Shown: positions 1 to 28,817 of the stretch, one piece after another
Layout of the letters: each line of letters opens with the position of its first letter
Position numbering within the stretch: position 1 is the first letter of the stretch
Source: Saccoglossus kowalevskii
Taxonomy: Eukaryota; Hemichordata; Enteropneusta; Harrimaniidae
Assembly (NCBI RefSeq): GCF_000003605.2
Contig: NW_003156234.1
Location: 344,678-373,494, forward strand
DNA length: 28,817 nucleotides
Reading direction: 5' to 3'
Program-made: the position numbers and the translations under genes
The notes under the pieces: model-generated
What the model was told of the DNA's origin: nothing
The model's database searches: none
Seen by the model: only the letters and a program-made list of their open reading frames with translations

Positions 1-597
1 GCAGGTAACTAGTAATCCCTATCCTCGGGGGCGGAGCTACGTCACAGACGTTCTACGTTGCTAAGACGCGCGCCACTGTACCACGTATTTCTATGGGCTT
101 TGTGCGCGCTGCTGTGGAACGCCGGTGGAGCCGGTGAAAACTCGAGAAAACAACACAAACCCTTTGAAGTAATCCTGAACAACCAAATTTATATATGTTA
201 CACACGTAGGACTAATCTTGTTACACTGTTCAGGGGAGTCTCAACAAACATCCCAAAGTACCGTTTTCTGCGAGTTTTTGGTCTTTGTTTTCACCTCGAG
301 GGTTGCCAGGCGGTAGAAATTGCCCGGATGTCCGCCCCCGAGGATATTGTTCCATTTGGGCCGGTTTTCAGACCGGAAGGAACGCGACTGGGTGACGTAA
401 TTTGAAAACATTCCAAGTTCCGTTTTGCGTAAACGTGTCTGTAATGCTACAATAAAGCCACGCTCATACATACTGCCTGCTTAGATTTACAGATTTGATA
501 TGTTCTGTGCAAATTTATAACAAAAGAAACAATTCTTTTTATTCGCCCAACTTTCGAAAGTAAAAGGAAACCCCTGAACGGCCACGAGCGTAAGCGC

Positions 598-605
598 TGA
601 CGTCA
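598..605. promoter_or_regulatory. CRE octamer TGACGTCA
   Basis: Perfect palindromic cAMP-response-element/ATF site, one of five in the first 8.7 kb. It is not near a recognised start codon, so its function is uncertain. Confidence 0.3.
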
Positions 606-763
606 GGTAACTAAGGGAAATGGAACAAGCAACGAGAAAGTGATGTACCAATCAGAATGCCAGAACCGTTACTAGTTACCGGCCTCTTGTGGCTTGGTAC
701 GCCATGACACTTGAGGCGGGAACCAGCCAACGCTCAACGCAGCTATGAAGTACGAAATGATAT

Positions 764-921
764 AGCGGGGAAGTCGTCAGCTGCGCATGCGTCAGATAGC
801 CATCGCGTGTCATTGTTTACAAACAAGCGTCTGCCCACAGGCCTTTGCGTTTTTAGTGTGTGTTGTTATCATCGCTTGGGACTTAAATTCCCGCGCGTGC
901 GCAGGTGACGAGCCTCCCGCT
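764..921 (+). mobile_element. TTAA-type miniature element, family 1, copy 1
   Basis: This 158-base segment is about 80-90 % identical to the reverse complement of 7853-8008. It starts AGCGGGG, continues with a GTCGTC and TGCGCATGCG block, and ends with the inverted version TGCGCAGGTGACG...CCCGCT. The right flank is TTAA (922-925); the left flank is TATA, a decayed form. A TTAA target duplication is typical of piggyBac-like transposons, but the terminal bases are not the usual CCC, so the superfamily is inferred. It has no coding capacity. Confidence 0.75.
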
Positions 922-1495
922 TTAACGCTATAATCCGGATATCATGCGAATATATTTGGCATTACATACTCACAATGGCAGTTTTTTGGTTACTTATATA
1001 AACCATTTTTTTTTTGGATATTCATTGGTACTACTGTAATAGTTGTTGGCTCATAGAATCAGAAGCGCATTGTCGCTATAAATCGCTACATTTAGTTACG
1101 AAACGCTTCTGTAGTGTCAGGATGACAAAAATGGGTGGAGTCAATGTCGTTCGTCATCTAGAATATAGTAGAATCTCTAACTAAACATAATATCCATTGA
1201 CTATATATCAAAACAATATTAACGCTAGGAAAGCTGTATTGGGCGCTCTTTTCTTTTGACAAATAAATAAACTGAGCAGTGATTCAAAACTAGTGGTTGT
1301 ACATCCTATAAAGGGGTACAAAATGCAGCCTATATTTTTTGACAATGTTGGCACTTTTTGGACTTTATTTGCATCCTTTTTTTACCTTGACCTTGACATC
1401 GTTTGACAAATTCCTAAATTAGTTTATAATTGCCACACCCAAACACTATCCCACCCCCCGCGTCAAAACTCGGATTGTTCATTTTAAAGTATTAC

Positions 1496-1616
1496 CTGAC
1501 CGAGTAACACCACATCAAATGTCATCTGGTCGATGTGTGTAGGACGGTTATAGCGGTGTAAAGTAACGAATTTGAACAGACACATTTGCCGATTACGAGT
1601 CGAAATTCTTGGTCGA
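1496..1616 (-). CDS. Possible second exon of gene 1
   Basis: On the minus strand a pyrimidine-rich acceptor (TTTTTCTAAATAG, with TTCTAAT as a plausible branch point) precedes 1616, and a CAG|GTAAT donor follows 1496. Splicing from the gene 1 donor at 1680 would remove a 64-base intron and continue the frame for 40 codons, including the peptide RQMCLFKFVTLHRYNRP and ending in DQMTFDVVLLGQ. The phase fits. It shows no similarity to the coiled-coil exon of the paralogue. A 40-codon open stretch arises by chance fairly often, so this exon is only a proposal. Confidence 0.28.
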
Positions 1617-1680
1617 CTATTTAGAAAAATTAGAAAATACGCACTCATCAATTGTAGACGAATGTAAACAGAAAACTTAC

Positions 1681-2231
1681 GTGTCGTGGTGTGCGGGAGG
1701 TAAACTGTTCCGTTGTTTACGCTTCTCGTTTCTTCGTTTATAGACCATAGCATAGTCGTAATCGTACTGACACACTGCATCATACTCGCCGTCTTGGTTA
1801 GTGATGTGTCCCTTGTTGTCGTACTGCACAGGTTTTCCGTTAATGAAAGTGTTATCATCGCACTGAATAACTGTGATTATTTTTCCATCGTCGTCAGCAC
1901 ATGCAGTTATTTCCAAACTTCCAAAACAATTAAAGTAACCTATCGATTTGTGAAACGTGCCTGTAGATGTCAGTGACTGGCGGGCCTGGTTGGATTTGGT
2001 TTTCCTCACAACCGGGGGGGTAGACCGGTCAGCGCCAAACTGTACCGTCACCGACCGGTACTTGAGCAGTTTCTTTCCATCTTTCGGTTTTCTGTTCGAG
2101 TTTGGTTTGCTTTGCGTTGATACTGTTGGGTTTTTCTTTAGCTTGTTGTCATCCCCGCTTTCTCTGCGCTGCGATGAAGATGCAGAGAATGACGTCTGCT
2201 TGTTTGGCAGCCGTGATGTAGCCATACCCAT
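1681..2231 (-). CDS. Gene 1: first exon of an unrecognised myristoylation-type protein, paralogue of gene 2 (partial)
   Basis: This exon encodes 183 residues plus two bases of the next codon and ends at a strong GTAAGT donor (1680-1675). The start at 2231 is chosen because it gives MGMATSRL: Gly2, Ser6 and a basic residue at 7 fit the N-myristoylation consensus, and the paralogue begins the same way (MGTINSKL). An in-frame upstream Met at 2321 would mask this. Residues 7 to about 100 are rich in Ser, Lys, Arg and Asn. Residues 103-184 form a domain that aligns without gaps to gene 2, with about 36 of 82 positions identical by hand count. Shared marks include FGS, NGxPVxY, the QYxYDYAM block and LPPxxH. 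I do not recognise the family. A membrane-attached protein is inferred from the start motif alone. No coiled-coil exon equivalent to that of gene 2 exists in 1-1680, so the gene continues differently, continues off-window, or is broken. Confidence 0.68.
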
Positions 2232-2433
2232 TGTGCACAGAAACAACTTAGCACATGTATACTGTTCGTGGTGTTGCGAACGTGTGATTGCCAAAATAGA
2301 AAACTCGATTATTTGGAACACTCACGATGAACGTTCATTTCATTCCACGCGTTTCTATGTAACGCGCGATCTGCTCTCATGCGTGGTGGTAAACGCATGC
2401 GTAGTAGATCTATGATGGTTCGGATTGGGACGG

Positions 2434-2441
2434 TGACGTCA
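2434..2441. promoter_or_regulatory. CRE octamer TGACGTCA upstream of gene 1
   Basis: A perfect CRE/ATF site 203 bases upstream of the gene 1 start codon, a position compatible with a promoter-proximal element. Function is inferred from motif and position only. Confidence 0.4.
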
Positions 2442-2928
2442 TCTGCGATGTGTTTAGCTGTCCACTCTAATCCAGCCCAACATATAGTAATTCAACATAC
2501 TAGTAGTTGTCTCTTCATGGCTAATTCTTGGGAAGGGATATTTTCCACGCAAAAAGCACAACATAATAATATCATGGATGCGACAAAAAATTAACTGCAT
2601 GCTGTTGAAGTCAAATAGTTCTTCGATTTGTCTAGTTTAGGTTGAAGATTTTATTTTATTTTGTCCATGATGACCGTTTTGGGCCAAACTCCCATTTGGG
2701 CCTTATATGTGAACCCGGTTACTTGTTTACACACGAAAAATATTACATACACACATACACTGTCGCACACGCACCCCCCCCCCCTCCTCACCGAACCCAA
2801 TTAAAACTGAGTGAATAATGTACTATATGTATGATAACCCACGTGTAGCTACAACCTGTGCGACACCGTACTACATTTAGTAGAAACATAGCTCGCGCTT
2901 AACTCAATTTTGCTTTGGTCAACATTAA
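2442..2928. other. Spacer upstream of gene 1
   Basis: No coding exon is supported. It contains a short CA-rich stretch and a C12-type run near 2743-2790, and otherwise unremarkable AT-rich sequence. Confidence 0.5.
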
Positions 2929-3183
2929 AGAACGGTGGTCGTCGCGCCGCGAACGTGCAACATTATGTGTATATACATTGATTTTCCAACATTCCAATGC
3001 GCTCTTCTAATGAAATCACGACTACGAGTTTTTGCCTCGGCGGAACTTGCACTAATTACCGCCGGTGACTCCTTCGAAACCTTCCAATCACCGAACAATA
3101 ACTTAATTAAAGCTTGATATCGTCATTTTTGTTTATGATGAGACCCATATCTCGCGCATGTGTGGCGCGACGACCACCACCCT
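2929..3183 (+). mobile_element. TTAA-type miniature element, family 2, full-length copy
   Basis: Flanked by TTAA at 2925-2928 and 3184-3187. The left end reads AGAACGGTGGTCGTCGCGC and the right end is its inverse (GCGCGACGACCACCACCCT), giving terminal inverted repeats of roughly 22 bases. At 255 bases it is the longest uninterrupted copy of the family. Its reverse complement aligns along its length to the two halves of the disrupted copy at 17233-17715. It has no coding capacity; a TTAA target duplication suggests piggyBac-type mobilisation. Confidence 0.85.
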
Positions 3184-3187
3184 TTAA

Positions 3188-3690
3188 TAAGTGCGCATTA
3201 TCCGTGCGATTACAATTCAGTGTGATTATTTTTTAATCTGGTGTGCCCAGCGAGGTATATATGGCGTGTCGGTGTTGGCAACAACGCAATTCATACGTAC
3301 ATGTAATTCAATCTGCACGCGCACTGATGTTTTCATCGCTGCTATGTTTGCCCCAAGCATAGAAGGTACTAACGCTTGAACCTTCCTTGCTCCAAAGAAA
3401 TTGATATACCAAATTCATACTAATATCTGGGCTAATTTTAATATTCGGTTAGCGATCGACCACTCAAAATAGTATACAAATGCGTCTGAAAACTTATATG
3501 GACACTTTATAAAATTACCTATTAAAGTATAACATCAGAGAGCCAGGGTAGTTACATTCAAATAAACTTTATTATAATTATAGTAAATTTGTGCAATTTG
3601 ACATTATAGTTTAAGTTTATCGTTTCTGTGTTCTTTGGGTTATGACTTAACGTAGTATAAACTTACTGCGCGACTTCCGTTGGAAAATAA
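3188..3690. other. Spacer between the gene 2 terminus and a TTAA element
   Basis: No gene is supported on either strand. It contains the probable polyadenylation signal of gene 2 at 3568-3573 and is otherwise AT-rich, with scattered short open frames that have no recognisable content. Confidence 0.5.
3568..3573 (-). terminator. Polyadenylation signal of gene 2
   Basis: AATAAA on the minus strand, about 118 bases beyond the gene 2 stop codon. A plus-strand AATAAA overlaps the same spot (3561-3566), making it a two-way AT-rich signal. Assignment is by motif and spacing. Confidence 0.55.
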
Positions 3691-6144
3691 TCAAATTCTT
3701 TCGGAATACCCATCACATGATGACGTCGCCTCTTCCTCGCCCAACCCTGTCGCCATTACGTCCCTGGTTGGCTCGTCGCCAGCCTCGTCCAAGGACCACC
3801 ACTTCGCGTTGAGTGGTTGCTCGGGAATAAGCGCAACGGTTTCTCGGGACCTCTGTTGGTGTTCTACGCAGCACTGTGCAGATACGTTGGTGCCTAATCG
3901 CCCAATTTTCTTCCCCAGACTTGTGTTTTCTTTGCTCCATTTTGTGTACCTGTCTTTGATATCTTTGTGAACGGAGTCCATGTCTTTGATTGTGCCGTAC
4001 AGCGAGGCAATTTCGGCAATGAGTTCATCCACCCGCGCTGCCAACCGCCTGTTGTCGTCACGTAAAGCCTTCTCGGTGGCGTGTTGCTGGACGAGCAACT
4101 TCTTCTTTGCCATAACGTCGTCGACGAGACTAGTACATCGCTTCTCAAGTTGATCGTTCATCGCCTTAAACTTGTCGTTCTTCCTTGTAAGGGTAATTAT
4201 CTGTTCATTCTGCTGTGTTGCAGCCGATGTGTTACGCTGTACGCGCTGTTCCATTTCGCTTACCCTGCTGAGAAGTTTCTCGTTTTCCTCTTTTAACTTG
4301 CAAATCTGGATCTCCATGTTAGCTTTTGTCTCCTGCGCCTTCTCAAAATGTTGTTTCGTCGTGGAGTAAACAATCTCTAAACGATCACGACTGTCCATGA
4401 CTGTTGATTTTTCTCTTCTCAGCAGGGTCACTGACTCACTTTTCGCGTTCAGTTCGTCGCTCACTTTTTGATAGAGAGATTTGAGCTTCAAGTTCTGTTC
4501 TTCGGAACGCGTGAGGTCGCTGTTCTTCAAGTGCAGGCTGCGTCGACTGGTTTTCAGCTGGGCCGCGATTTCCGCTTTATCTTCTTCAGCTTCGCGAAGT
4601 TTACTTTTCAGATCTACTTGGACATTCTCAAACCTAACGATCTCGGATTTCAATCCTTCGTTTTCACACTCAATTCGTTCCAATCTCTCTTTATACTGGT
4701 TACCATGGTGATCATTCTGGAGCTGTTTGATGCGGTCCTCATACGTGTTGAACATGGAACTCATATCGCAGTTCACTTTCTGTAGTTGGCACACCCGTCT
4801 TTCCACTGACAGAAGCTCATTGTTACAGTCACGTAGCTGGTCTGACCGCTGGCGAAGCGCGCTTTTTAATCTATCGACTACTTTTCTCAAATGACGCCCG
4901 TCTTGCTTCGCGCTCATCTCCGTGCTCTCAAATCCCGCCACGGCATTCTCCGACAAAGCTGATTCTAGCGCTAGTCCTAACTTATCCAGACTCTGTTTCA
5001 ATCTGTTGTTTTCTTGGTTCGTCTCTTTGAATACCCTTTTCAATTCACTGCTTTCCATTTCCAGATTTTCGGCGCGAACCTGAGCTTTGACACGTGATTC
5101 TTCTACATCGTAAAAAATAGTTTCTAACTTTTTATTGTACTTTTCAGCTTCTGCCAGCTTGCCGGAAACTTCGGCTATGGCTGCTTCGGTTTTCTCGAGG
5201 TCTTCCTCGCTGATATGACTTGTGTTTTGAAATCTAGACTTGTCCGTTTCATTTTGAAGCTTGTCGTTTTCGTTCATTAGTTCTTCGACTCGTTTCGACA
5301 GTTCTTCGAGTACTTTCTCAAAATCTTCGGCATCAATCGCTTCATCTTCGGCATCAATCGCTTCATCTTCGTCGATGTCCTGCATTTGCCGGGAACTATG
5401 TGGTACGCTGTGAATGAAACAAGGTACACGTTTTTAAGAACAGATTTCCCAGAAAGTGTCACCGAATAGTTAATACAAATACAGTCTTTTGAATCTTACA
5501 AAAACGTTCGAAATGCATGTATGTGTCCAACGGGTGGGTTTATAAACATGATATAACCGGAATACATGGGAACGCCAACACGCAACTTACGCTTCATGAT
5601 TGCCAGGAGGCAACTGGTTTCTTAAATTGTGTTTCCCTTTCTGTCGTTTGAAGTTCATGGCATAGTCGTAGTAATATTGCAACAACGGATCTAGCTCTCC
5701 GTCTTTGTTGACAATCTTCTCGTCACCATAGTAATGTACCGGTTGCCCGTTCACGTAAGCTTTATCACAAAATTCTACAACGACGACTTTACGTCCGTTG
5801 TCAACAGTACAAATAGTGACGTCATAACTTCCAAACGACCTGCAGTAACTGCTACTAGACCGGAGGAGTGCCTGCGTCGATGATCGCTTTTTGGTGATGT
5901 CGCCGGATCTACATTTCCTCAGACGCGAGTGACTGGATTTTTTATGGTGTAACTGGAAAGTCACCGACGGGTATTTCACAAGTCGACTGCTAGACCGACA
6001 GTTAGTGATGGACTTTCGTGGCTTCGGCGTAGGAATCACACGTCGTTTGATAACGTCTTCCTCCGCTGATGTTACACTTTCACGCGGTGACGTCACCGGC
6101 GAAGCATTGCGATGCTGATACAGTTTTGAGTTAATCGTGCCCAT
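3691..6144 (-). CDS. Gene 2: unrecognised protein with myristoylation-type start, conserved domain and long coiled coil
   Basis: Two exons, 6144-5591 and 5407-3691, encode 756 residues. Exon 1 ends GAAGC|GTAAGT and exon 2 follows TTTCATTCACAG; the join completes a split Ala codon and runs straight into the long frame, which supports the model strongly. Order of parts: MGTINSKL start (Gly2, Ser6, Lys7: N-myristoylation consensus); basic Ser/Arg/Lys-rich stretch to about residue 103; 82-residue domain shared with gene 1 (104-185) with NGQPVHY, QYYYDYAM and LPPGNH; acidic linker with a doubled DEAIDAE unit; nearly continuous heptad coiled coil from about 214 to 688, rich in Leu, Glu, Lys and Asn; then a 68-residue non-coil tail with Cys-Cys and Trp-Trp pairs. 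The coil resembles myosin-rod or golgin tethers only in general composition. A membrane-tethered elongated scaffold is inferred. Ending in a stop at 3691 is the simplest reading; an extra 3' splice is not excluded. Confidence 0.8.
5330..5371 (-). repeat. Tandem 21-base duplication inside gene 2
   Basis: Two identical 21-base units (5330-5350, 5351-5371) encode the repeated acidic heptapeptide at the entry to the coiled coil. The exact identity of the copies suggests a recent in-frame slippage event; copy number may vary between individuals. Confidence 0.85.
5408..5590 (-). other. Intron of gene 2
   Basis: 183 bases, GTAAGT donor and TTTCATTCACAG acceptor on the minus strand, phase 2. No in-frame continuation exists across it, since TAA follows the donor immediately. 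Confidence 0.8.
5817..5824. promoter_or_regulatory. CRE octamer TGACGTCA inside gene 2 exon 1
   Basis: A perfect CRE lying in coding sequence, where it encodes part of SYDVTI. It may be coincidental coding sequence; it is listed because of the clustering of this octamer nearby. Confidence 0.25.
6087..6096. promoter_or_regulatory. Extended CRE palindrome GTGACGTCAC in gene 2 exon 1
   Basis: A 10-base perfect palindrome containing the CRE octamer, about 50 bases inside the gene 2 coding start. Its position near the 5' end would suit a downstream promoter element. Inference only. Confidence 0.3.
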
Positions 6145-6155
6145 CTCGGAGTCAA

Positions 6156-6162
6156 TGACTCA
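6156..6162. promoter_or_regulatory. AP-1-like TGACTCA just upstream of the gene 2 start
   Basis: Consensus AP-1/TRE heptamer 12 bases upstream of the gene 2 ATG, probably within the leader or close to the transcription start. Motif evidence only. Confidence 0.3.
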
Positions 6163-6753
6163 ATATTGTGTTGAAAATCACAACACGTATGAGAGATTGC
6201 GTGTAAATCGAATGTTAAACGCTGGAACCATGGAACAACGTTGTTTATTTCGTTCCCGAACACCGAACAGTTCAGATACGCGCAAAGACCCTGGGGAGCG
6301 TTGTGTCGTCATAGGAAGCGCTGTTCCAGCACAGACAACACCGATCTGCAACGTCAACGCCCTGGGGAGAAGAGTGTATTGTTCTACACCAAGCGCCCTC
6401 ACTCGTGCGATGGATCAGAATGTGGTGTGTGTCAGTGAGAGAAGCTGAATCCAGGCGGTTGGCTGATGGGTTCACAAGCAATGAAAAACTCTAAATTGCG
6501 CATAATGTTTTCAATAATTGTTACCAGTGACAACTTTCTTAATAAGTGTGCGTTTCGACTACAAATGCTCTATCCAGATCGGGGATTGCCCTCTCGTGCC
6601 ACCAGGGCTAAATCTAAATACTAGTGTTTTTTTGTCAATGACACGTACCATGTAAAGTACACAACATTGGCGATAATGAGAAGTAGTATGTTTTATTGCA
6701 ATATGAATATTTGCATTGCTATGGGCTTTGCAAGCTGTATTTTGTGTCATTAA
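6163..6753. other. Probable 5' flank of gene 2
   Basis: CpG-richer than the rest of the window up to about 6430, as expected of a promoter region. No TATA box was identified in a defined position and no coding exon is supported on either strand. Confidence 0.4.
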
Positions 6754-6872
6754 AGGGCGGCAGTCGTCGTGCCGCGTCCTGTTTGATATCATAGCGACGT
6801 ATACAACGCGTGTAAAATACATTGTTTATATACATGAAATTCGAACACGCGCTGCGCGACGACCACCGCCCT
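6754..6872 (+). mobile_element. TTAA-type miniature element, family 2, short copy
   Basis: Exactly flanked by TTAA (6750-6753 and 6873-6876). Ends are AGGGCGGCAGTCGTCGTGCC and its inverse, differing at a few positions. At 119 bases it is an internal-deletion form of the 255-base copy at 2929-3183. Non-coding. Confidence 0.85.
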
Positions 6873-6876
6873 TTAA

Positions 6877-7852
6877 ATTTGTTTATTTAAACAAAATAAA
6901 AACATCGGAAGAAATGGCACGAGTTTTTGCTGTGACGTATTTATTTTCTATACTGTCATTTTTTGTTCTATTTTAATTTTATTTTAATTGAAAGTAATAC
7001 AAATATTGATAAATAAAAAGTGTCATAGCATATATACAAGTTGTTGACCGAATTTGATGCATTTTGGTGAGCATATATGATGGTCAGTGGCCGCAGATTG
7101 GTCAGTAATAGATAAATTCAATAGGTGATTTTCCGTACAATTGCGAGATCTCGCGAGATGCATGAAAGACGCGCGCCGAACGTCTGCTGCAAAAATCGAA
7201 CGATTTGATTTTGAACTCGAATTTCTTAATTTCGTAGCTCACATCGACCGGTCGATCTTCGACAGAGCAATATTGCTTCCGAATGCCTATCATCAAATGT
7301 GGAAAGCACATTATTAAGCATGGAAATGTCCCCCGAAATACTTTCGCGTTTGTCGAATCCCACGCGATGTTTGACGCCACTACGACGCTATGACTTTTGT
7401 TTGTCCTGTTTTTACGTTCGATTTCACGCGAAACGCGTGATTCTCACAGTGAACGGAAAATGGTCTATTGGGAGGTATGGAATGAAAATGAATTACGATT
7501 GGATTTAAATAGTTCAAATATGAATGAATCCAAATTTGTATCACTCTCTGTAACAATTACTGTTATTTATTAACTTTATTCCAGGATAATATGAAAATAG
7601 TATATTCTATATCAGACGACACCTAAAAACGACAAATTGTTTAAAAAATACGTTTTAAGGAATAATTTTATTATTGCTGTTATCGCCCCTGGGGGCCTCA
7701 ATAATAACGTTATTATTTACACATGTGCCTATAGCGTTGCAGTCCTTAGCAACCCTGGTACATGTAGTATTAATACAGTTTGTTTGTTTTTTTTCTAAAA
7801 TTACACCATAAATTGAAACAATACATGTTAGTACGGAATATAGGCACTTTAA
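6877..7852. other. Intergenic region without a supported gene
   Basis: Open frames on both strands around 7100-7510 overlap each other, start with non-ATG codons or lack splice support, and resemble no family I know. A CpG-rich patch lies at 7140-7440. The rest is AT-rich. Confidence 0.45.
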
Positions 7853-8008
7853 AGCGGGGGGGGGTCGTCACCTGCGCACGCGCGGGAATTGAGTCCCAAG
7901 CGATGATAACATCACCCGCTAAAAATGCAAAGGCTCATGGGTACGCTTGTTTGTAAACAATGACATGCTATGGCCATCTGACGCATGCGCAGGTGACGAC
8001 TCCCCGCT
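7853..8008 (-). mobile_element. TTAA-type miniature element, family 1, copy 2
   Basis: Flanked by intact TTAA (7849-7852, 8009-8012). The ends are inverted repeats beginning AGCGGGG with a GTCGTCACCTGCGCA block, interrupted on the left by a lengthened G run. It lies in reverse orientation to the copy at 764-921 and preserves the central TTGTTTACAAACAA region. Non-coding. Confidence 0.8.
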
Positions 8009-8012
8009 TTAA

Positions 8013-9070
8013 CTGCATTTATAGAAATTTGAAGTTGCCATAGAATAAAGTACATTGAATAATTCACATATTTTACCTGTTTTGGGGAAACTCATATAAT
8101 AAAGAGTATTTTGTCGAAAGCTACCTTACAATCAACAAATGTGCAATAAATAAAAACTGTGCGTCATTTTTTTCGTTCATGTATAATATACCAAACAATT
8201 TTTGAAGCAGAAATAGAACTAATAGATGTCCGCCCTCGGTGTTAGTTTGTCATACGGAAGAGATATCAACAGAGGGCGCTATATTATGTAGACCAGTGTT
8301 TGTATTATCATGACAGGTTGATAACTACCTGGACGGCCTCGTTGAGTTGGTAACCTTCGGTCATTTGTCATCATGTTCTTCAAACCAACTCTGACCCTGT
8401 CATGATTGCAGCACTACTAGCGACAACACTGTCCGTAGAATCGCTAAACTGAGTAAACGTTTTTAGTATTTGCACTATGGGTAAGTACATAGAAATTGGC
8501 TCCATGGTAGGTATTGAACACATTGAGATTTGTATCACATTGTTGACCGGCGCGACGATCGATCGCCAGTCGTCTGTGATCTGCACCACGATTGTCTTAA
8601 GATGGCGGAGGGCAGCCACTTTTCCAGTTTTCGAATGCACAGCTCTCTAATAATAGTGACGTCACCAATTAATATCATCTACAAACAAACAAGCCTCTCA
8701 CCGAAGCCTGTCATGTCCCGGGAGGAGAGGTATGTATGGGGGTCTAAAAACTAACTCTGCGACGCGCCGAATGTCGATTATTGCACTCTGCGACAGGATC
8801 GCAGTGTCATTCTGCGAAGAGCACGATTCCCATTGGTTGGTTGGTTGGTCGAAAAGCGTGAATCTCAATGGTCGATCGATGTAAGGGTACACAGCATGCC
8901 TTGTATAGAAATGTTCAGTTTTAAATGGTTATTTCACCGACTGCTCGCGAACTACGGTAAACAAGTATTTACCGCCGACATGCCGCACGGTTCGGTAATC
9001 AGCAAGTATTTAACATTGATTTATTAACATATATAACATCCCCGGGGGGTGAAAGGGGTTACAAAACACA
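8013..9070. other. Intergenic region without a supported gene
   Basis: A minus-strand frame at 8380-8640 is open for 86 codons but has no splice context or family resemblance. A short GCCCTC/GAGGGC inverted pair flanks about 45 bases at 8230-8280. A perfect CRE lies at 8657-8664. Nothing else is supported. Confidence 0.45.
8657..8664. promoter_or_regulatory. CRE octamer TGACGTCA
   Basis: Perfect CRE within GTGACGTCACC. No nearby gene start is recognised. Confidence 0.25.
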
Positions 9071-9640
9071 TGCACGTTGGTGTTGGCTGCCTTATTACGG
9101 TGTAACATCAGGGAGCAACATTAACGCCATCTTGAAGTTGTAAGGCTTCGTCCGCAACTACTAGTATGCTCATTAGCACGCGCGAAGTACGTTTCACACG
9201 ATGTTACGTTCTTTTTTTTGTCATTAGCAAGTATAATTTGTTATGCCTATATTCATCACTTTGAATTCCCAAATAAAGCGTGTAGCGGGTCAAACTGTTT
9301 CTAGGCAATCAAAATCGTTTAATTAAGAATATTAGAGAAAAAAAACGTAGCTGTGTGAATGGATTGAAACTACTGCTGAAGATAGAAAACTAAAACGGCA
9401 GTGTCAACGGAAAATTAGATGGGTGCATGCTCTCTGCATAAACGGAAACGATGGCTTTGTTTATTTGGCCGATGTCGACGAGCAACAGATTTCCTGTACT
9501 CACTTCCTCGTCTAACCACCGGCCTTCAACGGTCTCACGTATCGGTGTCGTAATCGGTTAAGTAGTTGAAACTCTTGATGCGAATATTTCAGCCTAATCG
9601 TCCCTTTCAAACCAATCGCGAGTTTGGTCATAATATGACC

Positions 9641-9771
9641 TAGACGTGCTTGCAATCTGTTGCGATTCCGATGAAAAATTCTTGAAAAATAAATATAAAT
9701 TGCGTAAACGAGGGGTGAACGCGAGAGTCCTGTAATTTTTCATCGGTATCAGAACAGGCTGCAAGCAAGTA
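9641..9771 (+). mobile_element. Miniature element with 9-base target duplication (hAT-like)
   Basis: The 131-base element is bracketed by the direct repeat AATATGACC (9632-9640 and 9772-9780). Its ends are imperfect inverted repeats over about 35 bases: TGCTTGCAATCTGTT and CCGATGAAAAATT on the left, mirrored by AATTTTTCATCGG and AACAGGCTGCAAGCA on the right. Eight-base duplications typify hAT elements; the ninth base may be chance. Non-coding. Confidence 0.7.
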
Positions 9772-10105
9772 AATATGACCCTGAGGTGCAGATTTTTTTT
9801 TTGCCTCGTCTATCATTGGCGCCTTTGCTTTCTTTTTTTTTTCATCGTCATTGCGTTAGCAAGATGGTGTTATTAAAATAGAATATAGACTTAGAAAATA
9901 AAACGATTTCTCAGGCGAAGTCTTGACTGATAATAATGCTGACAGTGGACGTTAGATTAATATGCATTGTTTGCGACCGAAAGCTTGTCACCCGTTCTAT
10001 CAGCATTGTCAACAACAGAGTGTTACCTGTAGTATACATATACATGTTATAAACATTATGCAAATATTAACGAAACGATAGTAGTGTTAGCGTTTGAGCA
10101 CTGGT

Positions 10106-10125
10106 CTTTTCAAAATTTTGAAAAG
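10106..10125. repeat. Perfect 20-base palindrome
   Basis: CTTTTCAAAATTTTGAAAAG reads identically on both strands. It lies inside the foldback structure. It could be a protein-binding dyad or a chance AT palindrome. Confidence 0.5.
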
Positions 10126-10868
10126 CTGGGATGATGAATCAAGGTACAAAGTAATTGTTTAATCAATTATTGGAAATCAATAAGAAAAGAAATTCCCTTC
10201 CCGCTACATTAAGATCAATATGGACCACCGAAATTTGGCGTTCATTTAAAAAAATAAAATTATGATACAAAAATAATCCATTCATACCACAAACCAACGC
10301 CGTTTTTGTTTACTTTTCACAACTGTTACAAAGTATTTCATTTCTGGTGGTTAAAATACCAGCTAATTGATCGTAGACCACAAGTTTGGAGTCTGTTTAT
10401 GATCTAAACGAAGGCAGACGATTGCAAACAACTGCTGTCATGGCAAAACGTTGCACATCGTGAATGATTTTTTTTCACTGCATGCAAATTATTTTGCCTT
10501 GATGCACTCAACAAAGTCAAAGCAGACGTACAACATTCGTTGCAGAACGCGTGAAAAGTACTTCGCGTTCCACTCGCTTTGAAGCTGCCACCTATGCTAA
10601 TGAGCATAGTCGTCAGGACGAAGCCTTACAACTCCAAGAAAGCGACAACGTTACATCGTAAATAGGCAGTCAAAACCAACGTGCACGTTACACTATTTAA
10701 TTAATTTTTCTAGCCAGCGGTGTGATGTGTCTAATCACCGTAAACCATGTGTCATTTGTTTGGTCTCACAATTTGTCTTCCATGTGCTTGCCGATCACCG
10801 AACAGTGCGGCATGACGCCGGTACATAGTGTTTACACACTTTTTTTTACCATACCATTTTTACCATTT

Positions 10869-11774
10869 NNNNNNNNNNNNNNNNNNNNNNNNNNNNNNNN
10901 NNNNNNNNNNNNNNNNNNNNNNNNNNNNNNNNNNNNNNNNNNNNNNNNNNNNNNNNNNNNNNNNNNNNNNNNNNNNNNNNNNNNNNNNNNNNNNNNNNNN
11001 NNNNNNNNNNNNNNNNNNNNNNNNNNNNNNNNNNNNNNNNNNNNNNNNNNNNNNNNNNNNNNNNNNNNNNNNNNNNNNNNNNNNNNNNNNNNNNNNNNNN
11101 NNNNNNNNNNNNNNNNNNNNNNNNNNNNNNNNNNNNNNNNNNNNNNNNNNNNNNNNNNNNNNNNNNNNNNNNNNNNNNNNNNNNNNNNNNNNNNNNNNNN
11201 NNNNNNNNNNNNNNNNNNNNNNNNNNNNNNNNNNNNNNNNNNNNNNNNNNNNNNNNNNNNNNNNNNNNNNNNNNNNNNNNNNNNNNNNNNNNNNNNNNNN
11301 NNNNNNNNNNNNNNNNNNNNNNNNNNNNNNNNNNNNNNNNNNNNNNNNNNNNNNNNNNNNNNNNNNNNNNNNNNNNNNNNNNNNNNNNNNNNNNNNNNNN
11401 NNNNNNNNNNNNNNNNNNNNNNNNNNNNNNNNNNNNNNNNNNNNNNNNNNNNNNNNNNNNNNNNNNNNNNNNNNNNNNNNNNNNNNNNNNNNNNNNNNNN
11501 NNNNNNNNNNNNNNNNNNNNNNNNNNNNNNNNNNNNNNNNNNNNNNNNNNNNNNNNNNNNNNNNNNNNNNNNNNNNNNNNNNNNNNNNNNNNNNNNNNNN
11601 NNNNNNNNNNNNNNNNNNNNNNNNNNNNNNNNNNNNNNNNNNNNNNNNNNNNNNNNNNNNNNNNNNNNNNNNNNNNNNNNNNNNNNNNNNNNNNNNNNNN
11701 NNNNNNNNNNNNNNNNNNNNNNNNNNNNNNNNNNNNNNNNNNNNNNNNNNNNNNNNNNNNNNNNNNNNNNNNNN
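10869..11774. other. Assembly gap (906 N)
   Basis: An unbroken run of N. No content can be inferred. It adjoins a probable transposon fragment, consistent with a repeat that failed to assemble. Confidence 0.99.
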
Positions 11775-11815
11775 AAATTTTAAATCTCCATGCGGTAATT
11801 TGGTGGGTCTCCCCC

Positions 11816-12079
11816 TTATTCAAGACTGATGGTTTTGTCTAACTTTTTACGGACCCCGGCCGCGGTTATTGAAAACTTACGCCCTACTGCAGGGAACACT
11901 GCTCTCAGTACCTCACCGGTATTCATATTACCACCACTCTCCACAATTTCCTTTATGATTATTTGAGATAAATCATCGCTGAGTGACGTTCCCTTCTGGT
12001 AGGGTATGTTGTGACAGTTATAGTTTGCCATAACCAATATTACATCAGAATCTGAAACACTGACACGGACGGCGGGCAC
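11816..12079 (-). pseudogene. Possible transposase N-terminal fragment
   Basis: A minus-strand frame of 87 codons stops close to the gap. The segment LSDDLSQIIIKEIVESGG, followed about 25 residues later by GRKFSITAAGVRKKL, has the spacing and flavour of the helix-turn-helix recognition region of paired-like or Tc-type transposases. The opening codon at 12079 is GTG rather than ATG and the initiation codon is not convincing. Either it is a fragment of a decayed transposon, or an exon (a GTAAGT donor occurs inside, after GGGC near 11878). Family assignment is by impression only. Confidence 0.3.
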
Positions 12080-12134
12080 GATCAGGCTTTCTTTTCCATG
12101 TAGTTTGTAGTAAAGACGCCAAGTAAACGAAGTG

Positions 12135-12310
12135 TTACATTATATATATTATATATTTTTATTAGACGCATAAAATCCTTAGGAAAGGATAAAAAGGGTC
12201 TTACAGAAAGAAATTAAAAAAAAAAAAAAAACTACAATCTAAAAAATAAAAATAAAAATAAAAACTTTTCAAAAAAAAAAAAAAAAACAAGTCAAAAACA
12301 AAAAAATACA
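12135..12310. repeat. AT-rich simple-sequence tract
   Basis: ATAT-rich sequence at about 12138-12165 is followed by A-rich runs with AAAAAT units and poly-A blocks at 12216-12290. Low-complexity DNA with no coding content. Confidence 0.8.
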
Positions 12311-12785
12311 ATTTGCAGCCAATGGTGAATACAGAATATAGAATGAACACAAAATGTGGCCTAATACACTGATAGTTGTTGCTGTTTTGTTCCATAGCTG
12401 TTTTTTAAGAAGACAGCTAAGGCTGGTGCTAGAGTATGGTTTGCCATAATCAAAATGTGATCACCATTTGGTTAAAATAATAAAGAGTGCAACCTGATTT
12501 GTCTCAATGTTTGGCTGTCTAATAATGCTACATTCATGCATCTAACTACCAAATCGAAACACTATTTTATAAAATCTCTGTAATTGACATTCGGCGAGTT
12601 GCACAATCAGGTACAGAACAATATACTAGTTTAAAATCATGGTAAGTAAATAAGTCTACCATTGTCACATATCACACATTATATCATCACAGCAAAAAAT
12701 GAATCTTTTGATTCTGCAAAATGTCAAAAAGAGATCCTTTGACCATTGGAGATGTTGAAAAGGTATCCCCTGCTTCAGAAACATA

Positions 12786-13389
12786 CTGTAAAACATGTTG
12801 AAAAAGCGACATGCAATTTTAGCGAATTGTGGTAAAATGACGTAATAGCGAAATGATTTAGCGAATCGCTCTTGTCATTGTTGATTTCCCGTTTTCACAA
12901 TACTTGTCTGTGTTGCGCAAAAACAAATGCGCAGTTATCATCTCCATAAAAACAATGACAAACTCTCAAGTGTAATTTGATTATGTTCGCAATGATAAAA
13001 AACTTATTTATCAGAGATTTAAAAAGCGAGTATTGTTGCTGAGTTACATCCAGAACATTGACCTTTTATATTGGGACCCAAAAATTACTAAGTACTACTA
13101 ATTTCCGTAATAATATATCAGTATCACTTCATTTATTTATTTTCATTGAAATAATGACCACAATGAATACGTTTATTTTTTTGTGTTAATTTACTTTTCA
13201 ATAAAGTGTATCTATCATGTCAGTACGTTTTCTTTGTGTTCTTTACAAAGTGTGTGTGGAGAAAAAAGACGTTGTTTGGCGACCATTTTGAATTTATAAT
13301 AAAGTCATTAGCTACATCTTGAATTAGCGAATCAGTTCTCTTGCTAAATTCGCCTAAAAACATGCTCGCGAAAAAAACATGTTTTACAG
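12786..13389. mobile_element. TA-flanked element, long copy (604 bases)
   Basis: Flanked by TA on both sides (12784-12785, 13390-13391). The termini are perfect 14-base inverted repeats, CTGTAAAACATGTT, extended imperfectly inward by blocks related to AATTTTAGCGAATT. TA duplication and short inverted ends fit Tc1/mariner-type non-autonomous elements. No transposase frame is present. A shortened relative lies at 25412-25604. Confidence 0.8.
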
Positions 13390-13391
13390 TA

Positions 13392-14000
13392 ATTTAAAGA
13401 CTCCTTGGCATCATGTTGCCATACCAACTGATATTATCATTTTTCATGGAGATCACTGTATGTAATCATTGGCCGGGAGATGTTCTGCAGATAATACAAA
13501 GTCAGAATGTAAATTTAATTCACACAGTACGTGATCAGATAATACCTCATTTGACGACTTAATTTAGTTCCAATTAAGTGCCCTCTATTCAAGACAATAA
13601 GTACATGTTTACATGTGCAGTGAAGCAAATACTTGCACAAAATTCAACTTTTGTCATCCCAAAAATTAAACACACTCATATTTTTCCTATATTTGTTCAA
13701 TATTTTTTTTCAATACACTTCATGCAGCCAATAGAATGTTATGTCAGTTAGGTACAAAAACAACTAAAATATTATAGAAAAAAACATAAAAATGGTAATA
13801 GATTTGTTTTTATATTAATTATCATATAAAAAGGTGGCTATCATTGGCACCAAAAATTTGTTGAGTATATTTGAAATCTACAATACACATGTATAAATAT
13901 AGTCATCTAGATTTATGCAAATTATTTCATATTTAACCTTTATTATATGTACCGGTACGCCTGTACTATTGCAAATTATTCAAACAATTTATTTATGATC
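13392..14000. other. AT-rich intergenic DNA
   Basis: No gene, RNA or mobile element is supported here; it has scattered poly-T and poly-A runs only. Confidence 0.5.
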
Positions 14001-14003
14001 AGT

Positions 14004-14029
14004 GGGGGGTTGGGGCGGGGGAGGGGGGG
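14004..14029 (+). repeat. G-rich tract with G-quadruplex potential
   Basis: Four G runs of 6, 4, 5 and 7 bases are separated by loops TT, C and A, which satisfies the standard quadruplex pattern with very short loops. The surrounding sequence (CAGTGGGGGGT and CAATTT-like flank) resembles the right end of the element at 14164-14612, so the tract may be the end of another copy. Confidence 0.7.
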
Positions 14030-14163
14030 TGTTAAGGAACTTTGAATCACATGCTAATGTATATTGATCAGGTATGTCCTGAGGTAGCTTTTGATTTTTC
14101 AGGTCCTGGTAGTACAAAATTATCGGTCGCAGCTGGTAGCAGATTATTCTATTTTCAGTAACG

Positions 14164-14612
14164 TTTAGGGACGACATCAAATAATCGATGTCGGATAAAA
14201 AAACTTATTTTCTTTAGTTTGGGGGTGGGGAGAGATTGACCTCAAAATTTTCCATCCTACAAAAACGATTTTATTTTTCAATGAAGTCAAAAAAATCTTG
14301 GAGTATTTGTAGTTCGTTTTTTTTTTTTTTTTTTCTATCCAATCATGGACAAAAATAACTGAAAATGGAAAGAAAAAAACATTCAAGACAAGAAAATGGT
14401 TGGTCTGAGTATAAATATGTGCGTCAAATGAGGTCAATTTTAGGGCTTTTTACACCCATCCGACAACCAACTGCTATGCCAAACTACTGTTTGATTATCA
14501 ATTTGTATTTGATGGTAAATGTGGTCTGACGCCATGATCAATATTTATCAATTAAGTTTCAGTGGGGGGTAGGGGGATTATCCTACATTGAACTTTTGAT
14601 GTTGTCCCTTAA
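14164..14612. mobile_element. Non-autonomous element with GGGACRACATCAAA ends
   Basis: The left end, TTTAGGGACGACATCAAA followed by ATGTCGGATAA, is mirrored at the right by TTATCCTACAT followed by TTTTGATGTTGTCCCTTAA, giving imperfect inverted repeats of about 38 bases. TTA/TAA at the borders could be a three-base target duplication as in Harbinger-type elements, but the borders are uncertain. It contains a poly-T run and G-rich blocks near both ends. No coding capacity. Confidence 0.65.
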
Positions 14613-14984
14613 TGAACTATATGTTTTGAACAATAATTTCTCATATTGACAGTCAGAATTAAATTGGTTGCTTGATATTACAGGTTTTTTTGAGTGGTAG
14701 TCGGACATTCTTAATATACGGTGCCATATTGGTTTGACTGTTCATAGTCAAGTTGTTCATGCTGCTTCCCCATCATTACGCTTGACAGAAAAAACATATC
14801 ATAAATTTGGATTGTATTAAATCAGATAATAACGATAAACTGATAACATGTGGTGAACATGATGGTGAACTTGATATATTAAAGACAAATAGTCAGCAAC
14901 TAGAAATGTACATTTGTTGCCATGATGTTAATAAATTTGACATCTGCATAACTCTGTCAACAGAACATGACATTTTATGATCTA

Positions 14985-15250
14985 CTGTAGAATACTTTAT
15001 TTTAGCTTGGAATTCATTTTCGCTGAAGGAATGATTAAGTGAAAATAAAATCCAGTGAATATACTTTTTTTTGTATATTTTACATTCAACTCGTCAAAAA
15101 TCAGTGAAAATAAAATCCAGTGAATATACTTTTTTTTGTATATTTTACATTCAACTCGTTAAAAATCGGTGAAAATAAAATCCATACAAAACATCCAATA
15201 AGTCTTCTTAGAGCGAAAATTCATTCCAGCTAGAATGAAGTATTTTACAG
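14985..15250 (+). mobile_element. TA-flanked miniature element, copy A (with internal duplication)
   Basis: Ends CTGTAGAATACTTTATTTT and AAGTATTTTACAG are inverted repeats with TA on both sides (14983-14984, 15251-15252). It is closely related to the copies at 17427-17617, 22200-22407 and 27786-27993. At 266 bases it exceeds the 208-base standard because a 65-base internal unit is tandemly repeated. Non-coding; Tc1/mariner-like by its TA duplication. Confidence 0.85.
15039..15190 (+). repeat. Tandem 65-base duplication within miniature element copy A
   Basis: The unit beginning GTGAAAATAAAATCCAGTG starts at 15039 and 15104, and a partial third begins at 15169, each 65 bases apart. The first two copies are nearly identical, so duplication is recent or homogenised. 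Confidence 0.85.
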
Positions 15251-15441
15251 TATATTAAACTAACAACGCTACAAGGAAATCACAATTGTTTCAATAAAAA
15301 AATATTTTTATTTGGTCTTGTTATTTGCTTGTTGGAACTACCACAAAATATCAAGAATCTGTAGAACTTTTATAATTTCCAATTTTTTTTTTTTCTAGTT
15401 TACTAACTTTGTCCTTTCATATTTTGTCTGTAGCTCCAATT

Positions 15442-18400
15442 ATGAAATTGTTGATCTGCATCTTTGTGTGGATTTTGTCAACTGTGGATGCTGAACATTC
15501 TGAGATAGTGAACACTCGTAATGGTCCTGTTCGTGGAAAGCGTGAAGATGGCCAGATCGGTTATTATGGAATACCGTATGCAATGCCACCACTCGGGGAT
15601 TTGCGCTTTCGTCCTCCACAACCCCCTGACCCTTGGAATACAACATTTGATGCGTTGAAAATGAAATCGTCATGTTGGCAGAAGCATGACCGGCATAACA
15701 AAACTGGAGATGTTCCATTAGATGAGGATTGTCTTTATCTTGGTGTTGTCGTTCCGGACTCCATTCCTAAAGCAGCTTCCGTACTCGTTTGGATCCACGG
15801 GGGTGGATTCACATGGGGTACTGCTGAAAGGCACTTAGGTGACCATAATAATAAACTTACATCACATGAAAGTGTTATTTTTGTTGCAATGAACTACCGC
15901 TTGGGTGTGTTCGGTTTCCTCGCCATGAATTCACCAGATGCTCCGGGCAATATGGGACTACTGGACCAGCAGCTGGCTTTAAAGTGGGTGCATGAAAATA
16001 TAGCGGCGTTCGGTGGTGACCCAGATAAAATTACAATTGCTGGAGTAAGTGCAGGTGGCACGTCTGTGGCATATCATCTCTTCTCTCCTGGAAGTCGAGG
16101 TTTATACAGGCGAGCGATTCTCCAAAGCAGTTATGTCTTGAATCATAAACGGTCATTTGTCAGTGGAGGGGATGCAAAAGACAGAAGCATGCAGTTTTCA
16201 AAGAAGGTGAACTGTGACGGAGATAGTGGAGATGTCAAACTCCTACAATGTCTGCGAGGCATGCCCGCAGAGCAATTAATGAATAACCAGGATGCATTTA
16301 CTGTTTACCGAACACCGTTTCCACCTGTTATTGATGGGCAGTTCATCACAGATGAACCTCGAGCGTTAGTGAAGAAGGCTGAGTTTGAGAAAATTCCAAT
16401 TCTTTTAGGAACCCTACAGCACGAAACCGGTGATATGACGTTCCGGGCCGGGATTCCTGGTCTCTCTGCGAACAATGGGTTCCAGTTTAAGTACAACAAA
16501 CTACATGATGTTTTAACCCATTGCTTTCCAACCGCAGCAGATGTCTCACCTATTATAGAACAGTACGTGAAACGTAATAATTCAGAACCGACTTACTTTC
16601 GAGACTTACTAATGGACATAACTGCCGACTACTCATACGTCTGTCCATCATTAGAATTTGCCACATTATACAGCAATGTGGGTTTGCCTGTTTACTATTA
16701 CGAGTTCGATCACCGTCCTTCGGTGAGTATAGCGCCGGAATGGATGGGCGCAGTTCACGGCGATGAAGTGCCTTTCCTGTTTGGCTTCCCGTTAAAAGAA
16801 GGGCAGGACATTAGGCATCACACCATTGAAGAAAAAGCACTGAGTAAAAAGATGATGAGATATTGGACCAATTTTGCTAGAACAGGGTGAGTGGAATAAA
16901 GGATTTTGATAAAACTGTACTCAGTATCCACCTGAAGTATATTAAAATGATTTAGCCTGATACAAATCAGCACCAATTTTAATGGCTCTCTGAATCTATT
17001 TTAATCTTTTGATTGGTTTAATGTTCAGGACGTTTTTTGCGATTTGTTGGTTTGAAAGTTTTCTGAAAGTGACTTTCTAACCGTAGATAAATTCTCATTA
17101 CTACAAGACTTTTCCATTTTCTGTGATCAGTAAAAATTTATCACTTGTGAATATAAAACAGTTTACAGTCCTCATTTGCATATATCTAATCAAGTCAGTT
17201 TCCTGTGCGTCACTGTTCACTGTGATACTCAAAAAGCGGTAGTTGTCGCGCCACGCATGTGCGAGATATGTGGGTCTCATATAAACAAAGATGGCGACTT
17301 TGACTGTTGTGCATATCAACGAGTACAAACTAAGACGTTACCAAGCTTTAATTAGGTATTTTTAGGTGATTGGAAGGTAATAAATGAGTCACCGCTATAA
17401 TTAATGCAAGTCGCGCCCAGGTCAAACTGTAAAATACTTTATTTTCCCTGGAATTAATTTTCACTGAAAAGGCTTTTTGGGCGTTTTATATGGAATTTAT
17501 TTTCACTGATTTTTGATGAGTTTAATGTGAAATATAGGAAAAAAAGTATATTCGCTGTATTTTATTTTCACGGAATCATCCCTTCAGCAAAAATAGCGAA
17601 AATAAAGTATTCTACAGTACTTGTTATTGCCATTAGAAGAGCGCATTGGATTGTGGGAAAATCAATGTTTATCAACACAAATGTTGCACATGCGCAGCGC
17701 GACGACTGTCGCCCTTTAAACCAAGATTTAAACCACTTGTTGGATTGTGAGATGGCCTCTTAATAAAAGTTGGATTGTTAGAAAACTTAGTTGATGAACT
17801 TTTAATTTTGAGTAAATAGGCTGAAAATCAAATCTGAGAGTTACACATCATGCTATACTGATTAAAATCATTCATGAACTAAGTTATCTAATGTCTTCAA
17901 TTAAAATAATTCCCTTCATGCATTTCTGCTCGGATTCTACGTCGGGGTGCGCTAAACACAACTAACCTAGGAAGGATGTACCGTTAGATGTTTACTTTGA
18001 AGCAGTAGTAATATATAAATAATGAATAAAATGTTGTCATATAATTTTAAGAATTATACTGGAAACAACTCATGAATCAATGCCTCACATCTAATATTGT
18101 TTATGAAATATAGCCCACTTTTGATCACCGAATAAAGAATTTTGTGTTTGATTCGCGGACTTTATGGCATTCTAAGATAACTTTTGCCGAAAATAAGGGG
18201 GTTTTGAAAAATCACATTTGTTGGTAAAGCTTTGCGCATGAAATGTCCAATATGGATTCCATATAACATATACATTGTATAATACATCGTTTGTTTACAT
18301 GATGACCATACAGGCATTTCAATGTCTGGATGTACAAATTACATAACGCATGGATTCTACATGATGTCAGAATACTACAAAATATTCCTTTTTCCCAAAT

Positions 18401-21400
18401 TGATAGTGTTGTCTATTTTTTATGTGCTTATATATATATTGTGTGACCTGAGGTCAATAAACCAGAAGGTTGGACATATTTTGAATGTTTCCAACTGGCA
18501 GCGTAAAAAATACCCTCAAATAAAAAAGCCATCTTTCAACTAAGTCGTATCACTCTCAGAAAATTTGCACACTATTCTACCTAAGCAAGCAATGATAATG
18601 TAACACATCTGTAACAACAACCTTTATTGATATTGTATCCCTTCTGGGATCTAGATTAGAATACAATAAGGATATAAAGAACAATAAAATACATAAGTAA
18701 TAATAATAAAATTAAAAAAAAGGAAATAATAAATAGTAATGTAAATTATCTTTGGCTATAGCGGAATATTTTTATGTGTTTTTTTTTTGGAGGGTTATGG
18801 TTATATTTACTAGGCATAACACACACATGCCATCTTTTTCTCTGCAAGAATCTTCTTATTCAATTGTTTTTCAACTGTCTTCTTTTAGCTATACTTTACT
18901 GTGCCCACCCACGCTCACGATGTGATCTTTTAAAAATTGCTTTAAATATGTCGCTGACTTCTTCCAGGGATGTTTGTCTATTGTTTTTTCGTTTTGTTTT
19001 TGTCCTACCCTCACCTGTTGCTAGGTGGGTTACACTTGCACAAAAAAATGACATCGCATCTGTCAGTAATTCAGAATTCAGTCTGATAACTATCCATATT
19101 TATTTGTTTCCTCAGAAATCCCAACACAGAAAGTGAAAATGATATAGATGAAAATGAATGGCCACAATTTGGGAATGATGGTAAATATATTTTACTGAAT
19201 GGCAATAATGTTGATAAACCAACTGTACTTACCAAACTGAGACGTGAATACTGTGATTTCTGGAAACAACAGAGTGTATTTATGCAAAACAAGGTAAGTA
19301 CTGTAAAATCTGTATTAGAAGCTGTTACAGTAGTTTCTATTGAAATGGTACAATGCAACAGAGGGGATGTGGTTTCTATTAGAACATCTACACAAATTAG
19401 AAATTGGGATTTTGTGATTCTCAATTGTTAAAAAGAATAGATGCGACTTCTATTAGGGGATGCAGCTGTAATACAGATTTTTACGGTTGTTATTTTTTTC
19501 ATAACATTGGGTCTCTTTTATCAAGGATTGTGAACAAAAATAATATCCCCTGTCAGGAGGATATATACTAAGTATCATATTTTATCAGACTTGTTTAGAT
19601 CGAGTACCAGTAACTCTTGATTAATCCTCTTCACTAATTCTTGCATAGCCAATGTGGTATTTGACTGCTAGGGGCAGGGTATGATACTGGGCATGTGTCC
19701 TAGAGTATTTGACTGCTAGGGGCGGGGTATGACACTGGGCATGTGTCCTGGGGGTATTATTCATTTTTTTAGGAGATGTTATTTCCGCTGTAGGCACTCC
19801 AACAAATATAATGATTTCTTCCTTGTCTCACTGTGAGTTCACCAGGCTTTATTATTTCTGCTACGTGCAAGAGGTATCATTTTTACATTTCATATCAGCG
19901 ATGGGGTATTATTTTTGCTAGGTGTATTGTTTTCTACTAGATGTAGTGTTTGCTATTTCCACTATGGGTAATATTTCTGGATGGGGCATTATTTTGTCTA
20001 CTAGTGGATATTAAGGCCAGACTTATTTTTATTCCTTGTTTCTCGATTTTTTTATAAAGCAATTTTTTTGAGGAGGGCGGAAAAAAAATAAAATTAATTC
20101 TTTTTTTCCCATTAGATTTGTGTGATTCTCAAAGAATTGTAAGTGAGATCATTGATCATAGAGAAGAAATGAAATAACATTTTATTCTATGTATAACCTT
20201 GTTTCTCATCTGCGTGAGACTTCGGTACTTTGATCATTATACTCCCACGAAAATGCAACTTGGATTTGTTATGCGGCGGGCGGTAACAAAATTAAGATAA
20301 AAATAATATTTTTTTAGCATTGTTTGCGCTTACAAGGTGGCGGGCACGAGAAATTACGCTGAAATAAAATTTTTATTTTTATTTCATTTTCGGCTCCTGT
20401 TCATTCCGCGGGTTCGCGAAACAAGGGGTAATAAAAGTCTGGCCTAACTTTGCTAGGGTTTTTATTTTTGCTTGGATTTATTTCTGCTACATGTAGGTCT
20501 GTTATTATTGCTGAAGGTGTTATTTCTGCCAGAACTATATTATTTTGTATTGGAAAAGTATAATTTCTGCTAAGGGTTCTATTTTTTTCAAGGGAGGGGC
20601 GGAGAGTATTTTTGATTCCAGAGAATGTACATTTTTCCAAAATGACACTTACAGACCATGTGATTCCATTCTTGCAAATTATTCAACACCCCTACAGAAA
20701 AAATGGTTTCTCCCTATTCTCAGTGTGAGGTCATATTGGTGATGCATGGACTCACATGGATAGTCTGTGTTATGATTAATTAATTACAGTAATTAGTAAT
20801 TCTTACTTTAAAAAACACAACTCAGTTCTAGTGGAAGCAAATGTGAACTACATCATTTATTTCGGACATAGATGTATATTTAAGTATATCTCATAAATTG
20901 TTATGTAATATTGTTATTGAAGGCTTTTTTTTTTCAGTTGATTCAAAATGGCCGACTCTAACAGTACATTGGATTGACATATTCACTAGTGCATTCATGC
21001 GAAGGGTTATGTTGATTATCTCGACTGAAAAGCTAGCCACTTTTCTGAGCTCCAATCTGCCTGTTCTCAATTAATTTTAATACACAACTTGAATCAATCT
21101 GTTTCTAAAATCCACATATAATAAATCGATAAATATAATAATGTTTATACAGTAATAATAATAATAACATTTCTTAAGCCATGTTCACTGCATCACACAC
21201 CGCTGTACTATACATGAATACAAATCAAATTAAAAGGAGGATTAACTGTTTTATAAAAAAATAGAAGATATCAAAATACCTTAAAAATAACTTTAGCATT
21301 AAAATCAAAATTAAATGAAGAACTTTCTTCTAAACAGATGAGTATTCAGACTTCTCTTTAAAACATTGATATTGATTGATTGACGAATAAAGATTGGAAG

Positions 21401-21957: not shown

Positions 21958-22199
21958 GAAAAGATCAAGTCAGTTGGTTGGACCAAAACAATAGTCAACA
22001 ACTTTGTTATTCTATAAGAATTCATTTATAGAAAGTATTTGTAATGTTGGTTAATTGTGTGCAGTGAACCTATTATAAAAGAAAGAATCACTTGACAACA
22101 TGGGAATCAACATGCTTTGTGTTTGATGAGAATGCTGGAAGTTTTGTACATATTATGTATTAACTAAAACAAAAATGAACTCTCTATATTGTCATATTA
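21958..22199 (+). other. Esterase 3' untranslated region (start)
   Basis: Sequence after the TGA at 21955-21957. No AATAAA or ATTAAA occurs before the miniature element at 22200; the first AATAAA lies inside that element, near 22268. Confidence 0.5.
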
Positions 22200-22407
22200 C
22201 TGTAAAATACTTTATTTTCGCTTGGACTTAATATTCGCTATTTTCGCTGAAGGGATGATTCAGTGAAAATAAAATCCAGTGAATATACCTTTTTTCCTTT
22301 ATTTTACATTCAAATTAATTCCATACAAAATTAAATTCCATACTACAAAACACTCAAAAAATCTTTTCAGCGAAAATTAATTCCAGCTAAAATAAAGTAT
22401 TTTACAG
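22200..22407 (+). mobile_element. TA-flanked miniature element, copy B
   Basis: 208 bases with ends CTGTAAAATACTTTATTTTC and AATAAAGTATTTTACAG, flanked by TA (22198-22199, 22408-22409). It matches copy C at 27786-27993 in length and in internal order. It carries AATAAA on the plus strand at two places and the same signal on the minus strand. Confidence 0.9.
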
Positions 22408-22409
22408 TA

Positions 22410-25604: not shown

Positions 25605-25606
25605 TA

Positions 25607-26343: not shown

Positions 26344-28817
<2,474 letters not shown>

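Follow-up and report, generated by a model that had tools for sequence, protein, structure and literature searches.

Two tandem acorn-worm genes share an undescribed head domain behind a putative lipid anchor, one of them with a long coiled coil

A stretch of 28,817 nucleotides from the acorn worm Saccoglossus kowalevskii (assembly GCF_000003605.2, contig NW_003156234.1, positions 344,678 to 373,494), here called the window, carries on its minus strand a two-exon gene that is predicted to encode a protein of 756 amino acids (aa), together with a tandem copy of its first exon. At the DNA level the gene model is confirmed, and sequence comparison, AlphaFold2 and coiled-coil tests together support the layout that a first-pass annotation of this DNA had proposed, namely an MGxxxS start followed by a basic tail, a compact domain (the head) and a long coiled coil (the rod). 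That the two genes form a small cytosolic, membrane-anchored family acting as a membrane tether or scaffold is an interpretation that, in our estimate, could go either way.

Table 1 Coordinates of the two-exon gene and of the tandem copy of its first exon (positions in the window).
Feature	Position	Strand	Remarks
Two-exon gene	6144-3691	minus	product 756 aa = 185 + 571
Exon 1	5591..6144	minus	begins MGTINSK; residues 1-103 form a basic, Ser-rich tail and 104-185 the head domain
Head domain, residues 104-185	5591..5835	minus	AlphaFold2 model
Predicted intron	5408..5590	minus	183 nt, GTAAGT...TTCATTCACAG, phase 2
Exon 2	3691..5407	minus	acidic hinge, coiled coil, acidic C-terminal tail (691-756), stop
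AATAAA polyadenylation-like signal	3568..3573	minus	~117 nt past stop; consensus match only
Tandem copy of exon 1	1681..2231	minus	MGMATSR start, basic tail, head domain; GTAAGTT from 1680

Gene structure

Exon 1 (554 nt) ends in phase 2, with the first GT base of the donor at 5590, and exon 2 begins at 5407 and stays open for 571 residues up to the end of its stop codon at 3691. The stretch 5620-5300 offers two GTRAG donors, at 5590 and at 5499, and only two of the 15 [ACT]AG sites listed preserve the frame; the favoured one, the CAG before 5407, is the better of the two, with 11 pyrimidines in 15 positions versus 8 in 15 for the TAG located 12 nt beyond it. The coordinates of the first-pass model and its restored frame at 5591/5407 are borne out through this acceptor, and 5591 is presumably joined to 5407 by splicing. 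Both splice sites had been called strong, which suits the intron side of the donor, a perfect GTAAGT, and is slightly generous for the donor as a whole because of the C at -1 on its exon side. The polyadenylation-like signal is one of ten AATAAA or ATTAAA matches on the minus strand of 1-6200.

Tandem copy and N terminus

The first-pass annotation did not pick up the tandem copy, which sits 3.9 kb downstream of exon 1 of the 756-aa gene and has the same phase-2 donor, at CGTAAGTT. The two exon 1 products share 38% identity in a 136-aa alignment (E = 1e-31) and 32% across the entire exon, and because the copy repeats exon 1, this exon is the unit common to both genes. At the nucleotide level, identity at codon positions 1, 2 and 3 amounts to 59%, 59% and 39% for exon 1 and to 65%, 72% and 43% for the head only, while NG86 gives a non-synonymous divergence (dN) of 0.63 and a synonymous divergence (dS) of 1.53 between the whole exons, the dS of the head being beyond resolution. 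This pattern suggests that the duplication is old and that selection on the protein has maintained both copies, and, judged by the tandem copy and the codon-position bias, exon 1 is coding beyond chance. In the visible sequence of the 572-Mb genome, searched exon by exon with the best candidates scored, the head occurs twice and the rod exon once (sole other match at E 8.9), and unseen flanks could hide more.

The basic Ser/Arg tract described earlier is real, as residues 1-103 of the 756-aa protein contain 23 K/R versus 5 D/E; the net charge of the tail is +18, and +16 in the tandem copy, with 29 and 26 Ser/Thr, respectively. The starts, MGTINSKL in the 756-aa gene and MGMATSRL in the tandem copy, have M1, G2, S6, L8 and K/R at position 7 in common, and from residues 9-54 only S19, K33, T39 and S45 are kept. 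Furthermore, both N termini conform to the PROSITE N-myristoylation pattern, G-{EDRKHPFYW}-x-x-[STAGCN]-{P}, in agreement with the myristoylation-type label that the protein had been given. A myristoyl group plus a basic stretch is the usual build of a membrane anchor, and we infer that Gly2 may be myristoylated and the protein membrane-bound. Further along the tail, the block L(V/L)KYxSVTxQ is conserved at residues 55-64 and could be a motif for contact or for phosphorylation.

Head domain

AlphaFold2, run on the 184-aa exon with the tandem copy as sole relative, gave for exon 1 of the 756-aa gene a disordered tail and a moderately confident unit with block means of the predicted local distance difference test (pLDDT) score of 75-85 across 111-170 (whole-model pLDDT 53.3), with strands predicted at 107-113, 119-125, 128-131, 134-139 and 143-145 and a helix at 153-177. 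When the head of the tandem copy was modelled alone from the two sequences, the best of five models reached a mean pLDDT of 83.9 (range 66.3 to 83.9), with 46 of 84 residues at pLDDT >=90, a predicted template modelling score (pTM) of 0.68 and the same order of elements, without the short fifth strand. The two heads align gap-free over 82 residues with 36 invariant columns out of 84. The head is modelled as a compact unit of four to five strands and one helix. The first reading had described NGxPVxY as hairpin-like, which is consistent with the turn and strands predicted around it, whereas QYxYDYAM falls within the predicted helix.

The domain, unrecognised in the first reading, likewise matches no family by sequence search of Pfam, NCBIfam, PHROGs and the PDB sequences. 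The Pfam scans yielded no accepted family for either head, their best matches being NUP50 at E 0.057, which falls in the tail, and PAAR at E 0.15, both under the cut-off; the NUP50 link to the basic tail was judged to be chance. NCBIfam gave no match to the heads, PHROGs gave one at E 0.061, and the PDB sequences gave nothing better than E 0.64, where PIM7 (E 0.64), Psb28 (E 0.95 and 1.4) and phosphocholine cytidylyltransferase (E 1) were again judged to be chance matches. In addition, profile scans returned 194 pattern matches in viral contigs and 98 matches in prokaryote genomes, none of which was confirmed; for eukaryotes the comparison covered the PDB and the genome that holds the window. 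The literature search found no description of such a protein in the portions of the sources covered.

Hinge and coiled-coil rod

Between head and rod lies an acidic hinge at about residues 195-215, in which DEAIDAE is encoded twice by a 21-nt direct duplication at 5367-5326 on the minus strand. Exon 2 scores as an extended heptad coiled coil above shuffled background, as the first-pass annotation had proposed: with a COILS-type matrix, 420 of the 485 residues in 206-690 reach P > 0.5, whereas 20 shuffles average 106 such residues and never exceed 191, and the segments are 198-343, 356-390 and 417-663. The hydrophobic period of 3.5 over 214-700 has z = 8.2, with none of 2000 shuffles as strong, and it is significant (p < 0.05) in 11 of the 14 windows of 63 residues in 218-683. 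Residues 187 to 713 are free of proline. Coiled coils rise ~0.15 nm per residue, so that the span 198-663 would make a rod of up to ~70 nm.

Surrounding sequence

Elsewhere in the window, a carboxylesterase or cholinesterase-like gene lies at 15376-16890 on the plus strand (PF00135, 452.6 bits), and the frame at 19090-19431 on the same strand may hold a later esterase exon, by reading alone and with no Pfam match at E <= 1. An element of ~150 bp, present in two inverted copies (768-918 and 7858-8005) whose aligned pieces are 83-94% alike, flanks the two-gene region; one copy has 24-bp terminal inverted repeats, and by sequence the pair looks like a miniature inverted-repeat transposable element (MITE). 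Pairs of inverted arms at 6750-6876 and 2924-3188, which start with TTAAAG or near it, lie ~600-950 bp upstream of both genes and are candidates for a shared promoter element or for TTAA-flanked MITEs. The first six 2-kb bins have observed/expected CpG ratios of 1.06-1.42 and the next nine have 0.42-0.89, and a compositional boundary (1-12000 versus 12001-28817) lies near an N gap at 10869-11774.

A further contig of the same genome, C4830 (17,037 bases), is mitochondrial, with COX1 (PF00115) on the minus strand. We read its frames opposite COX1 as presumably ND1, ND2, ND4, ND5, COX2, COX3, ATP6 and CYTB, and another minus-strand frame as ND6-like; the ND1 sites that we take to be conserved are consistent with AAA coding for Lys and AGA for Ser. 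A paper on Rhabdopleura (PMC3121625) gives, for S. kowalevskii, COX1 as inverted relative to Balanoglossus, AAA as Lys and AGA as Ser, and a second source (PMC2697986) likewise gives AAA as Lys. By these traits, too, the window most likely comes from that species or one closely related to it.

Discussion

In the mechanism that we propose, the initiator Met would be removed and Gly2 myristoylated, and the lipid together with the basic, Ser/Thr-rich tail of ~100 residues would keep the protein at the inner surface of a membrane, from which phosphorylation of the tail could possibly release it. The compact head would probably bind a partner, and in the 756-aa protein the acidic hinge would lead into a coiled coil of ~430-470 residues that pairs two chains and reaches as far as its full length into the cytoplasm; dimerisation and the tethering role would follow from this layout. 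The head adds a small domain, so far undescribed, whose fold is predicted well, and the pair of genes adds a family in a key deuterostome lineage. If anchor and rod are true, the gene would be a simple model of how exon joining combines a lipidated tail with a head and a coiled coil into a membrane tether. A more far-reaching proposal is that this tandemly duplicated family is confined to hemichordates and that its head, either new or polo-box-like, is held at a membrane by myristate and carried on a long rod, as a kinase-free tether for which no counterpart is described in other animals; we consider this clearly unlikely.

Several observations weigh against a lipid-anchored, rod-bearing family. 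The exon 1 model of the 756-aa gene has a pTM of just 0.40, the donor at 5590 is weak on its exon side, the myristoylation pattern is permissive and the coiled-coil scores depend on the matrix used; moreover, the period test fails in 3 of the 14 windows (218-280, 311-373 and 404-466), which indicates that the heptad register is interrupted. A rod exon of the tandem copy was not found in 1-1680 (1,680 bp): searching the window with the rod by tblastn returned the rod itself and weak matches only (best E 0.054), and minus-strand open reading frames of at least 28 aa in 1-1700 reach a coiled-coil score of 0.90 at most, versus 2.05 for the actual rod. The rod may therefore not be general to the family, and the tandem copy may have a rod, a different second exon or no second exon.

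The permissive pattern also leaves room for a protein away from the membrane, a cytoskeletal or centrosomal scaffold that begins with MG by coincidence and whose basic tail would attach to acidic partners, for instance microtubules or nucleic acid; basic Ser-rich tails are generally known in microtubule-binding proteins too. We regard this as possible but unlikely, given that G2, S6, the basic residue at 7 and L8 are kept in tails that have otherwise mostly diverged. Very doubtful is a division into two separate genes, in which exon 1 is complete alone (185 aa, and 184 in the tandem copy, with the TAA stop inside GTAAGT), the coiled coil being a gene of its own or an operon's second cistron that begins at an ATG 22 nt past the acceptor. 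It is true that this first ATG past the acceptor is in frame, that an AATAAA match at 1369 lies ~310 nt beyond the stop of the tandem copy, and that both exon 1 copies, unspliced, end in a stop, as TAA is necessarily part of a phase-2 GTAAGT. Against this reading, the C and G before the TAA and the GTT after it are common to both copies while the flanks differ, an in-frame, pyrimidine-rich CAG acceptor follows 183 nt on, and AATAAA or ATTAAA was not found on the minus strand between 5408 and 5590.

Among known systems, the polo box of PLK1, PLK4 and Cdc5 is a six-stranded antiparallel sheet with a packed C-terminal helix, whereas the acorn-worm head has fewer predicted strands. We consider it highly improbable that the head represents one polo box that has diverged strongly, which would make the protein a polo-box protein without a kinase, set on a membrane-anchored rod. 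There is no sequence or profile match: no polo box appears for either head in the Pfam scan to E 10, with the limit that HMMER filters drop most matches above ~0.1, and none of eight whole-genome matches to PF00659 at E <= 10 lies in the window. Unlike the polo-box kinases, the protein has no kinase domain in either exon by Pfam at E <= 1. The rod has a generic heptad likeness to tropomyosin-like coiled coils (PF00261, E = 3.2e-5, 23.9 bits), under the Pfam cut-off of 38.6 bits, and no match among PDB sequences at E <= 0.001. Proteins of the MARCKS type, to which the Pfam scan gave no match, resemble the acorn-worm proteins in an MG start that fits a myristoylation pattern and in a basic region rich in Ser; MARCKS is not known to have a folded head or a long coiled coil. 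CCDC69-type proteins, likened here by general layout, have an MG start and a likely lipidated N terminus that is followed by a coiled coil, as in the 756-aa protein, but they are not known to have the basic 100-residue tail or the beta head. Overall, compared with these systems, the two genes are an orphan family of familiar architecture in one lineage.
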